Below, in pieces: positions 7,893-10,791 of a stretch of 45,090 nt of DNA. A program made the position numbers and the translations under genes. How positions within the stretch are numbered: the first letter of the stretch is position 1; the number at the start of each line of letters is the position of its first letter. The DNA is from a virus: positions 1 through 45,090 of IMG/VR virus record IMGVR_UViG_3300010885_033901; one strand, written 5' to 3'. Below the pieces are notes generated by a model. That model did no database searches. It saw only the letters and a list, made by a program, of their open reading frames with translations, and was not told where the DNA came from.

Positions 7893-9892
7893 ATATTATA
7901 CATTGCAGAACCTTGAGGAGATGGTGCTAATATACTTGTTGATGTATTTACATTGGATGATGATGATGATATATTAGTACTACCTCCAATATTATTAACA
8001 ATAACAGTTCCACCTGCACCGGCAGTAATACTAGCAGCCTGGTTTAATTCAACTCCGGCTGTTCCAGTCACTCCTTGAATTGCAGCTGCTTCATTGCCAG
8101 TATTTTTAGCTCTAAATTCAAAATTATGTCCTTCATAATCATTCCATGAGGTATACCCTGCTTGGCGAGCATCTTCGAACTTTGCAATCTCTTGAAGTTT
8201 TTTAATATCCAGATCATTAAGAGCAAGGATACCTTTCGATGCGTCAGCCAATGCTTTAATACCATCTGCTATTTTCTGAACTCCGTCTCCGATTTGAATT
8301 AGATTATATCCTTCCTTTGATAATCTAATTAATTGCTCAATTGGATTATCAGATCCCATTGAAAATATTTTTCCAAAGAATCCAGCCATACCAGATAATG
8401 CTTGAGATCCTCCAAGTGCTATAATTGCCAAACTTAGTTTTCCAAGAGCAATAGCAGAACCTGTTAATTTATCTGGATCAAGGACTTTAGTCATAGAGCT
8501 TAATCCATCCATAAAGTTAGTAATACCTATACCATTATCATCGCCCAAGGCCATTCTAAGAAGTTTAACACCCCCAGCAAATAATCCTAATCCGATTGCG
8601 CTTGCTGTAATTAATGGAACTGCGGTAGCAAGAGGAATTATACCAATCGAAAATGCGGTTAAAGCATCACCGGCTTTCATAAACTCATCCCAGTTAATAT
8701 CCTTCATTAAATTCATTGCATACGCAAATGGTATTAATGCTGCTCCAAGGGCTCCTATTGCAAGAGCACCTAGGAAAATAAATGGGGCGACTGCAGGTAT
8801 GCCAAGAACGGCAGCAGCTACACCTAGTGCTGCTATTCCTGCAGCAAGAACTCCTATAGTTTCAATACCTACCGATTTCATCATATCCAAGGCATATGCA
8901 AGGGGGATTATTGATGCTCCAAGGGCTGCTATAGTAAGTGCCCCCTGAAGTAATGTAGGAGATGATAATAACTTTGCTGCAACCCCAAGTGTTAATAGGC
9001 CGGTGGCAAAAACACCAATAGTACCAATACCAACAGACTTCATCATATCTAATGATTTTGCAAATGGTATCATTGTTATACCTAATAATGCCAGTGCACC
9101 AATGCCCTTCAAGACTTTCATATTACCAAGAGATTGTAATCCTAATGATAATCCAGTAAGTGTACCTTTAATTCCAGCTCCTATACCCTTTCCAACATTG
9201 GAGATACCTTTTCCAAAACCAGTTATGCCTTTTGGTGCTGATGTTACTACTGGAATATGAGCAGCCGGAACTCCAGCAGCTGCCGGTGGGGTAGAATGAA
9301 CAGCCGGAACTCCAGCAGCTGCCGGTGGGGTAGAATGAACAGCACCCCCAAGAGAGCCAAGAATATTTTGTAAGGTATTAGATATATTTGTTAATTGAGA
9401 AATAACTGTTTTTTCATATCCAGATGATCCTTTACCCTCTTTATTCTTTTTTCCAAATCCAAATAAACCACCAACCGAGCCAAGTATTTTTTTAGGCACA
9501 CTTAGAATATTACTAATAATACGATGAGGCATATTAATAATATTTTTAATACCACCCATAATATTCTTAGGAATATTCATAATGGTTTTAAATGGTGATA
9601 GCATCTTATCAAAGATACTATATGATGTACCTTTTTTAGCTCCAGAAGTACCACCAAAACCAATATTTTTAATAATCTTTAGAGTATCATCAAGAACTTT
9701 TTTTATTGAATTAATACTAGTATCAATAGAACTAAGATGTTCGGTATTTTTATCACCCAAAACATCTGGTTTAGGTGATAATACTTTTGATGTGAATGTA
9801 TCAACATTATCAAAGATAAGTTCATTGATGTGATTAGTATTCTTAATCTCATCAATAACTGTTTTTAAACTTATCTTTTCTGTTTTATCCAT
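7880..9892 (-). CDS. Tail length tape-measure protein (gp29-like)
   Basis: A 670-residue protein with a polar N-terminal 150 residues, a Gly/Phe-rich basic stretch (KKILGSVGGLFGFGKKNK) and an Ala/Pro repeat linker. The central hydrophobic region, about residues 240-430, has three similar units of some 55-60 residues; MMKSVGIGTIGV and MMKSVGIETIGV mark two of them. The C-terminus is Ser/Gly-rich. Hydrophobic helical repeats of the form LGALAIGALGAALIPFAYAM are typical of tape-measure proteins of marine T4-like phages. The protein sits inside the tail tube and sets its length. The gene follows the gp26/gp51-like pair with a 2-nt gap, the position of tape-measure genes after their chaperones. 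T4 gp29 is 590 residues. Confidence 0.75.
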   Translation of the reverse strand: MDKTEKISLKTVIDEIKNTNHINELIFDNVDTFTSKVLSPKPDVLGDKNTEHLSSIDTSINSIKKVLDDTLKIIKNIGFGGTSGAKKGTSYSIFDKMLSPFKTIMNIPKNIMGGIKNIINMPHRIISNILSVPKKILGSVGGLFGFGKKNKEGKGSSGYEKTVISQLTNISNTLQNILGSLGGAVHSTPPAAAGVPAVHSTPPAAAGVPAAHIPVVTSAPKGITGFGKGISNVGKGIGAGIKGTLTGLSLGLQSLGNMKVLKGIGALALLGITMIPFAKSLDMMKSVGIGTIGVFATGLLTLGVAAKLLSSPTLLQGALTIAALGASIIPLAYALDMMKSVGIETIGVLAAGIAALGVAAAVLGIPAVAPFIFLGALAIGALGAALIPFAYAMNLMKDINWDEFMKAGDALTAFSIGIIPLATAVPLITASAIGLGLFAGGVKLLRMALGDDNGIGITNFMDGLSSMTKVLDPDKLTGSAIALGKLSLAIIALGGSQALSGMAGFFGKIFSMGSDNPIEQLIRLSKEGYNLIQIGDGVQKIADGIKALADASKGILALNDLDIKKLQEIAKFEDARQAGYTSWNDYEGHNFEFRAKNTGNEAAAIQGVTGTAGVELNQAASITAGAGGTVIVNNIGGSTNISSSSSNVNTSTSILAPSPQGSAMYNIYNE
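9262..9339. repeat. Two perfect tandem 39-bp repeats in the tape-measure gene
   Basis: Copies at 9262-9300 and 9301-9339 are identical and encode, on the minus strand, a 13-residue unit of the form VHSTPPAAAGVPA. They form a flexible Ala/Pro linker between the basic N-terminal part and the hydrophobic region, and would change protein length in steps of 13 residues if copy number varied. Confidence 0.9.
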
Positions 9893-9894
9893 AA

Positions 9895-10077
9895 TTATTT
9901 TCTCTGTTTCTCTCGCTGTTCTTCTTCTTTAATATGATTTAATAATAGAGCTATATAAATTTCTCTCTCCCATGGTAGCATTGAATCTAATTCTGATAAA
10001 CTATATTTGTGATGCTGCATTAATGCAAAATTTGTTTGGTAATAGTTTACAAGAGATTCATGGGAGAGAGCTACTCG
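9895..10077 (-). CDS. 51: gp51-like extension in -1 frame of gp26 (tail assembly chaperone partner)
   Basis: A 60-codon frame lies between gp26 and the tape measure. It contains NYYQTNFALMQHHKYSLSEL and LPWEREIYIALLLNHI followed by a highly charged tail. This is the pattern of the short gp51 baseplate-hub assembly proteins of marine T4-like phages. No good start codon exists upstream of the conserved part; the only in-frame ATG is internal (the Met of LMQHH) and would give 41 residues. The frame is -1 relative to gp26, and gp26 ends in a slippery T TTT TTC. The likely product is therefore a gp26-gp51 fusion of about 294 residues made by frameshifting. It is too short and ATG-poor to appear as an ordinary gene. 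Confidence 0.7.
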   Translation of the reverse strand, partial: RVALSHESLVNYYQTNFALMQHHKYSLSELDSMLPWEREIYIALLLNHIKEEEQREKQRK

Positions 10078-10083
10078 AAAAAA
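9963..10083 (-). promoter_or_regulatory. Programmed -1 ribosomal frameshift signal at end of gp26
   Basis: Reading the minus strand, the heptamer T TTT TTC (10083-10077) is in the correct X XXY YYZ phase for the gp26 frame. A 6-nt spacer, GAGTAG, which contains the gp26 stop, follows. Next comes CTCTCTCCCATG (10070-10059), perfectly complementary to CATGGGAGAGAG (9974-9963), giving a 12-bp stem with an 84-nt loop. Slippage leads into the gp51-like frame. Confidence 0.75.
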
Positions 10084-10778
10084 CTTTGTGCGCCTACTAA
10101 GGTCATAGTGTTTGATTCATGACATTTACAGCATTCGAAGTTAATATCATGGGATAGTTTAGGTGATTCCGCAATAAATGTTTCAATAAGCTTCATTTGT
10201 GCTCTATTTAATGAATTAATGAATGTTGTCATTTCGGATTGTGATGTTTGATCTGCAGGATAAACTCCATCATTATCAAAGATAGATTCAATTGATGCAA
10301 TGATGACATCATTAATCATATCAGGAGTAGTCTTTAATTCATTCATAAGAACATTCATATCCTTTACTCTAATGTATCTCATATTAATACCAACCTTATC
10401 GGTTAGCATAATTATTTTATTTACTTTGGGGTCAATATTAAATATGATATTATCAATATTAACTTCGGTTTGGGTGAATGCTTCACATTTAGAACATTTA
10501 CAATTAATATCAGCTAGTTCACCGACTGATTTTGCACGGAGCTTAAGAAAAATATATTCAAGGTCAAACGTAGTTAAATCATTTGGTTCAACCTTATCGA
10601 ATGTACATGCTTTAATAATATCCTTCATTGCCTTTATGATCTCTTCATTATTAGAAGATTCTTGTGCTATAAGAAGGATCTTTTCTTCCTTAACAAGGAA
10701 TGGTCTATATTCAATAGTCTTCTTTGTTGAAGGAATATTGAGTGTATATTTTGGGGATTCTAGTATTGGTAATGCCAT
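10071..10778 (-). CDS. 26: gp26-like baseplate hub / tail assembly protein
   Basis: A 235-residue protein of the T4 gp26 family (T4 gp26 has 208 residues). The N-terminal part, IPSTKKTIEYRPFLVKEEKI followed by LLIAQES, is characteristic: phage variants share a 'Pro-Ser-x-Lys-Lys, then RPF-x-V-K-E-E-K' pattern. A Cys cluster CKCSKC at about residues 93-98 and ECCKCH near residue 216 could form a zinc ribbon. In T4, gp26 is needed for hub assembly around the tape measure. Its last codons form a slippery sequence, so a fraction of ribosomes should continue into the gp51-like frame. A late promoter TATAAATT places transcription start at its ATG. Confidence 0.8.
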   Translation of the reverse strand: MALPILESPKYTLNIPSTKKTIEYRPFLVKEEKILLIAQESSNNEEIIKAMKDIIKACTFDKVEPNDLTTFDLEYIFLKLRAKSVGELADINCKCSKCEAFTQTEVNIDNIIFNIDPKVNKIIMLTDKVGINMRYIRVKDMNVLMNELKTTPDMINDVIIASIESIFDNDGVYPADQTSQSEMTTFINSLNRAQMKLIETFIAESPKLSHDINFECCKCHESNTMTLVGAQSFFE

Positions 10779-10783
10779 ACTTT

Positions 10784-10791
10784 AATTTATA
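10784..10791 (-). promoter_or_regulatory. Late promoter (TATAAATT) of gp26
   Basis: TATAAATT on the minus strand. With the T4 rule that the octamer covers -13 to -6, +1 is the A of the gp26 ATG (10778), so the mRNA would be leaderless. Confidence 0.55.

Follow-up and report, generated by a model that had tools for sequence, protein, structure and literature searches.

The gp26 gene of the window (the whole stretch of marine T4-like phage DNA that was analysed, 45,090 nt, IMG/VR record IMGVR_UViG_3300010885_033901) ends with AGT TTT TTC GAG TAG, and a second reading frame stays open across its stop codon. The question raised by this junction is whether a short and a long protein are made from gp26 by a -1 frameshift, as in lambda G and GT, or whether the second frame is a gene of its own. 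The sequence signals, together with their behaviour in related phages, make it very likely that gp26 encodes a frameshifted pair of short and long tail chaperones, with a stem that is probably stimulatory.

Organization of the gp26 junction

The features of the locus in the window were as follows:

11483-10797, minus strand: gp19-like tail tube paralogue, upstream of gp26 (PHROG 45, E=2e-32)
10778-10071, minus strand: gp26, putative short form (TAC-N), 235 aa (Pfam T4_baseplate PF12322, E=2.5e-55; PHROG 150 baseplate hub, E=2e-60)
10083-10077, minus strand: slippery heptamer T TTT TTC, in the 0-frame phase X XXY YYZ (from the sequence)
10077-9895, minus strand: -1 frame extension, the C-terminal part of the predicted long form, 60 codons plus the stop TAA (9897-9895)
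10076-10071, minus strand: 6-nt spacer GAGTAG, which includes the 0-frame stop TAG (10073-10071) (from the sequence)
10070-10059, minus strand: stem 5' arm CTCTCTCCCATG, perfectly paired with 9974-9963 and covarying
10058-9975, minus strand: stem loop of 84 nt, with further internal helices in the MFE fold, predicted to extend the hairpin in the window
10020-10018, minus strand: earliest -1 frame start codon (ATG); annotations place the gp51 start at similar internal ATGs, for example in phage Syn1
9974-9963, minus strand: stem 3' arm CATGGGAGAGAG, perfectly paired with 10070-10059 and covarying
9892-7880, minus strand: downstream 670-aa ORF with a strongly hydrophobic central region, probable tape measure protein

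The PF12322 profile covered the whole of gp26 (187.9 bits against a cut-off of 24.5), and the extension matched PHROG 634 (E=5.3e-28) and positions 236-281 of PHROG 150 (E=7.7e-6). The -1 ORF was open from 10116; its first in-frame ATG, GTG or TTG was the ATG at 10020, which leaves only 41 residues. The ATG of the downstream ORF was located at 9892, 2 nt past the -1 ORF stop. This ORF is a probable tape measure gene by its position, length and composition, and phage records yielded no homologous protein for it at E<=1e-5. The heptamer phase, spacer, 12-bp stem, 60-codon extension and 2-nt gap given in the initial annotation were all confirmed base for base. The gp19-like ORF sits where other phages annotate the gp54 tube initiator and may be the gp54 gene. 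An antisense ORF of 161 aa (10300-10785, plus strand) overlapped gp26 and showed no sign of being a gene.

In the proposed mechanism, gp26 would be the short tail assembly chaperone (TAC-N). A fraction of the ribosomes would slip back one base on T TTT TTC and miss the TAG one codon later; these would read 60 more codons and produce a long form (TAC-NC) of 294 residues, in which GAQSFF is followed, after the shift, by RVALSHES. The 12-bp stem, placed 6 nt past the heptamer and closing the 84-nt loop, would probably hold the ribosome over the slip site. In the manner of lambda G and GT, the short and long forms would coat or recruit the tape measure protein encoded by the gene that follows. We infer from the sequence that ribosomes do shift at this site, with some efficiency.

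The heptamer alone was unremarkable, as TTTTTTC occurred 5 times per strand in the 45 kb; its phase and its position with an open -1 frame, conserved in 246/248 related loci, exceed chance. The junction fold was more stable than shuffled sequences, with z = -4.4 when the slip site was included and -5.0 when it was left out, and 0/200 shuffles were equally stable. An Rfam search at the junction matched no family.

Related loci were collected from IMG/VR with the gp26 proteins of the window, KVP40, phiM12, YB07, Syn1 and I1_9 as queries (KVP40, YB07 and I1_9 gave one or two loci each), and annotated phage genomes were also added. The loci were picked by gp26 similarity alone, with the slip site ignored, and the count covered 248 loci whose gp26 end was complete. 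An in-phase T TTT TTN was found no more than 31 nt from the gp26 stop in 246 of them, which bears out the conservation expected at the gp26-gp51 junction. The last base of the heptamer was C in 196 loci, T in 47, G in 2 and A in 1. Beyond the gp26 stop, the -1 frame was open for 52-71 codons in untruncated loci, with one exception. One of the two loci lacking the heptamer, a metagenomic contig, read AGT GTT TTC at this position. The isolates with the site included Kyanoviridae (Syn1, Melnitz and Ochrobactrum phage OC), KVP40 (Vibrio), Ahp1 (Aeromonas), YB07 (Stenotrophomonas), phiM12 (Sinorhizobium) and I1_9 (Rhizobium), and ZPAH1 (Aeromonas), S13 (Cronobacter) and OLIVR5 (Agrobacterium) were added later. 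With two Phe codons present, T TTT would be expected from the codon usage of these genes in 69 of the 162 non-redundant sequences, and it was observed in 162/162; these sequences are related and were taken from the 246 site carriers, so that the implied probability is only indicative. In Rhizobium phage I1_9 the heptamer was T TTT TTG, with the amino acid altered and the T run kept. In most of the superfamily sampled, the short and long forms would come from one gene.

The long-range stem and its probable turnover

The frameshift could be real and the 12-bp stem a non-stimulatory by-product of the conserved protein motifs ALSH and PWERE, which are encoded by its two arms. Many relatives were without the stem, and it was poorly formed in the outgroups KVP40 and Syn1 (6/12 pairs each). 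RNAalifold over the whole mixed window clade gave no common structure, after which the named stem was scored pair by pair. In 67 ungapped sequences near the window, the 12 pairs were formed in 77.2% of cells compared with 72.2% in shuffled data (reached by 0/500 shuffles), the double changes numbered 55 compared with 29, and pairing was 35-59% with the partner slid.

The stem contains three wobble-wobble pairs, which join degenerate third codon positions (Ala3-Arg3, Leu3-Glu3 and His3-Pro3). Among 310 testable third-position column pairs from 98 sequences (the window and phiM12 query sets), columns 21/120 and 18/123, each pair about 100 nt apart, ranked first and second, with covariation p-values of 1.5e-9 and 2.0e-6, and the next best column pair had 2.9e-3. 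In the window set alone, these two wobble pairs ranked first and third of 287. Covariation of the third wobble pair (27/114) was not significant. Tree parsimony gave at least 8 and 7 switches between paired states for columns 21/120 and 18/123, and among disjoint close pairs the changes were compensated in 25/32 and 12/13, whereas 500 control column pairs averaged 18% and reached 60% at most. Because the wobble pairs covary with many switches, an RNA helix across 84 nt appears to be selected beyond its two protein motifs, and there is strong evidence from these sequences that the 12-bp stem is kept by selection in the window's lineages. A by-product of the motifs is an unlikely source of synonymous positions that covary this far above other column pairs with many independent switches, and of the rare codons (CTC, GGG) that cyanophages place in another hairpin at nearly equal spacing. 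The stem predicted to be conserved in relatives was found covarying in the window's lineages and missing from several others. These covariation figures concern the 12-bp stem, and the inner loop helices come from the MFE prediction for the window sequence alone.

The Syn1-related cyanophages mostly had a different partner. Their 5' arm ACTCTTCCA starts 7 nt past the heptamer and can pair with TGGAAGGGT 8 nt on, and this compact hairpin was formed in 86% of cells. Its covariation was not above shuffles and RNAalifold on the cyanophages gave three pairs only, so the support for this hairpin is codon choice. Rare codons were used at its positions: CTC in 42/47 sequences (background 5.6%), GGG in 29/36 (9.2%) and TTC in 40/52 (23%), with p-values that are inflated by the relatedness of the sequences. 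The spacing of the hairpins was alike across lineages (6-7 nt), and the 5' arms lay within the same protein stretch.

Across the wider T4 superfamily, the stem partner would vary by lineage around a retained slip site. It is probable that the stimulatory RNA turns over around a fixed slip site, judging by the 12-bp stem with its 84-nt loop, the cyanophage hairpin with its 8-nt loop and the other stems of the phiM12 set, with gene duplication taking the place of the whole device in the T4 lineage. The loci would offer many natural frameshift signals, together with an RNA element open to compensatory mutation.

Two loci of the phiM12 query set, L099 and L101, had a different stem of 9-14 bp after the same slip site. 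In L099, GATGTTGCATCAGG paired with CTTGATGCAGCATC and the 3' arm ended 65 nt past the heptamer; in L101 it ended at 60 nt.

Coding in the -1 frame

In codons located past the slip and before every ATG, GTG or TTG, single-base codon changes in the -1 frame were 1914 synonymous and 659 nonsynonymous, compared with 365:2269 and 297:2445 for the same codons in the two other registers; the counts were made on sequence pairs 70-97% identical, which are not independent. This pattern indicates selection at the protein level on the -1 frame before any start codon that could serve it. From the slip onward, the consensus was FFRIALSHDSLENYYKTNFALMQHHKYSLTELENMMPWER, and a product begun at an internal ATG would lose the first half of this conserved stretch.

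These results bear on an alternative in which the -1 ORF, gp51, is a small gene in its own right, with its own start and with reinitiation or coupling at the gp26 stop, and the T run merely encodes Phe-Phe. GenBank records do place gp51 at internal ATGs in Syn1 (43 aa), Melnitz and phiM12, the ATG overlaps the gp26 stop in KVP40, YB07 and I1_9, and Tequatrovirus gp26 keeps the two Phe residues without the slip site. However, the first -1 frame start in the window leaves 41 aa and loses the conserved RxALSHxSLxNYYxTNF, which is under protein selection where no start comes before it. The synonymous choice and the TTG of I1_9 showed that the bases are conserved and not just Phe-Phe, and T4 gp51 holds both domains in a single chain. 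An independent gene is thus very improbable as the explanation of the -1 ORF. The initial annotation would have been refuted by homologues with an intact gp51 start and no slip site; this comparison did not refute it, as 246/248 homologues keep the slip site, among them KVP40, YB07 and I1_9 with their ATG at the gp26 stop.

The first -1 frame ATG was codon 4 or 5 from the slip in 24/162 sequences, and the early ATG of KVP40 overlaps the gp26 stop. In sequences with an ATG at codon 4 or 5, a separate small protein could be made in addition to the predicted frameshift product. In cyanophages and relatives, the gp51 of the annotations (43-60 aa) is probably an extension that has been annotated too short.

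A further reading takes the junction for the result of faulty sequencing or assembly, or of gene decay, in which a homopolymer indel split one gp26-extension gene. In its favour, homopolymer runs are error-prone and one locus has five T instead of six. It has almost no probability and is refuted by conservation, as the identical arrangement and frame relation recurred in 246/248 loci from many sequencing projects and isolates.

The locus with five T instead of six was a Stenotrophomonas phage record (L172, 2200-2420), and the frame that results was neither 0 nor -1. A natural fusion was ruled out for it, since one T fewer leads to the wrong frame; the five-T run is probably a homopolymer error. 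GenBank gp51 starts at internal ATGs (about 43-53 aa) were seen among L082, L083, L086, L260 and L262, and the extension of Cronobacter phage S13 and Aeromonas phage ZPAH1 was without any annotation.

Relation to known tail chaperones and to T4 gp26 and gp51

Tail assembly chaperones made by -1 frameshifting, lambda G/GT among them, were reportedly described by Xu, Hendrix and Duda in 2004. The subject of a 2022 study by Vladimirov, Gautam and Davidson (Virology 566:9-15) is said to be the tail assembly chaperone genes of T4-like phages, which we take to be genes 26 and 51. The frameshift principle and gp26 and gp51 as tail assembly chaperones are already known. The link drawn in the initial annotation between the hub proteins 26 and 51 and the tail assembly chaperones is not new, having reportedly been made in the 2022 study. 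A chaperone role of gp26 would follow from the lambda G/GT work and from that identification of the T4-like tail assembly chaperone genes.

Like lambda G/GT, the locus has a short protein and a predicted -1 extended form, encoded in overlapping frames directly ahead of an ORF that is tape-measure-like in composition. The in-phase X XXY YYZ heptamer near the end of the short gene is conserved, and the coding -1 extension has no start of its own, with some relatives having an ATG that overlaps the gp26 stop. Unlike in lambda G/GT, the heptamer is different, gp26, at 235 aa, is the larger protein and comes from another sequence family, and a covarying long-range stem is present. A G/GT-like pair made by -1 frameshifting before a tape-measure-like gene, as first proposed from the window, is supported by the slip site in 246/248 loci, the coding -1 frame and the lack of an early start in the window.

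Frameshifted tail assembly chaperones of the G/GT type are summarised in a passage of PMC10885494, and the T4-like study of 2022 is cited there and in PMC12846349. A passage of PMC12846349 (2025) credits that study with poly-T slip signals in T4-like TAC-N genes; on this basis, the slip site has probably already been reported for some T4-like phages. The same source describes, in the passages concerned, a chaperone frameshift at a conserved GTTTTT in phage Adele and the Vandenendeviridae/Andersonviridae. In the Adele group, as predicted for the window, the -1 shift takes place on a T run where TAC-N ends (3' end), the genes precede the tape measure, and the -1 frame is uninterrupted (>200 bp in all its genomes; likewise open here), according to passages of PMC12846349. 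In contrast, the Adele group belongs to other phage families with the motif GTTTTT, and stem covariation is reported here only, as far as the passages of PMC12846349 go. In the open-access literature, no report was found of a covarying stem, of lineage-specific replacement or of this breadth, and the titles and abstracts listed described no gp26-gp51 frameshift in cyanophages or KVP40-like phages. The novelty rests on the covarying long-range stem and its probable turnover.

The AlphaFold model of gp26 had a pLDDT of 94 and matched predicted baseplate hub proteins of many phages. In Foldseek, gp26 had a weak match to HK97 gp13 (2ob9) at rank 14 (E 2.0, probability 0.28, target TM 0.40 over 76 columns), the only tail chaperone among the solved-structure matches listed, and a PDB sequence search with the gp26 profile gave chance matches only. 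According to a passage of PMC3004832, assembly of T4 needs gp51, which the particle itself does not contain.

Profile comparison aligned the gp26 family with residues 6-201 of the T4-lineage gp51 (E = 2.1e-17), and hhalign aligned the -1 extension with gp51 columns 200-253, its last ~50 residues (E = 1.9e-11). The T4-lineage gp26 and gp51 aligned with each other (E = 3.7e-19). The -1 sequence had been called gp51-like; this is true for the last ~50 residues of gp51, and the part before them (residues ~6-201) aligns with gp26. T4 gp51 and the predicted frameshift product thus share one build, in which the slip position marks the border between the domains, and this architecture (a gp26-like N-domain and a C-terminal extension in one chain) was matched only by the predicted product. 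T4 gp51 is already the long form, because it starts with ~200 residues paralogous to gp26 and closes with ~50 that match the extension. The statement that T4 keeps the two halves separate was not upheld, since in T4 the short form (gp26) and the long form (gp51) each have a gene of their own, the two genes being paralogues.

Although the same two protein domains occur in T4 and are homologous over their length, T4 has two paralogous genes and no slip site, compared with one gene and a predicted frameshift here. Genes 26 and 51 are divergent in T4. The T4 gp26 end is GAG TTC TTT, and its -1 frame meets a stop at once. Where a lineage has gp51 as a gene apart (Tequatrovirus, 44RR, phiP4-3, Ac42 and EC-F2), the gp26 end had no in-phase T TTT TTN, and the T4-lineage gp26 genes with a separate gp51 had no extension in the -1 frame. 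In the tree, the N-domains of T4-lineage gp26 and gp51 grouped together (support 99) and away from every frameshifting gp26. The slip would have been lost in the T4/44RR/Acinetobacter/Proteus/Pseudotevenvirus lineage, where the long form would have passed to a paralogous gene of its own, 51. Most simply, the frameshift would be the older state and duplication would have replaced it in the T4 lineage, a direction that we infer, as the deep nodes of the tree have weak support (23-56). The role of T4 gp51 as the putative long form of the tail chaperone, with gp26 as the short form, is now directly testable.

In the Pseudotevenvirus EC-F2 (L263:3001-4294), a long 51-like gene and a short 26-like gene were found in tandem on one strand.
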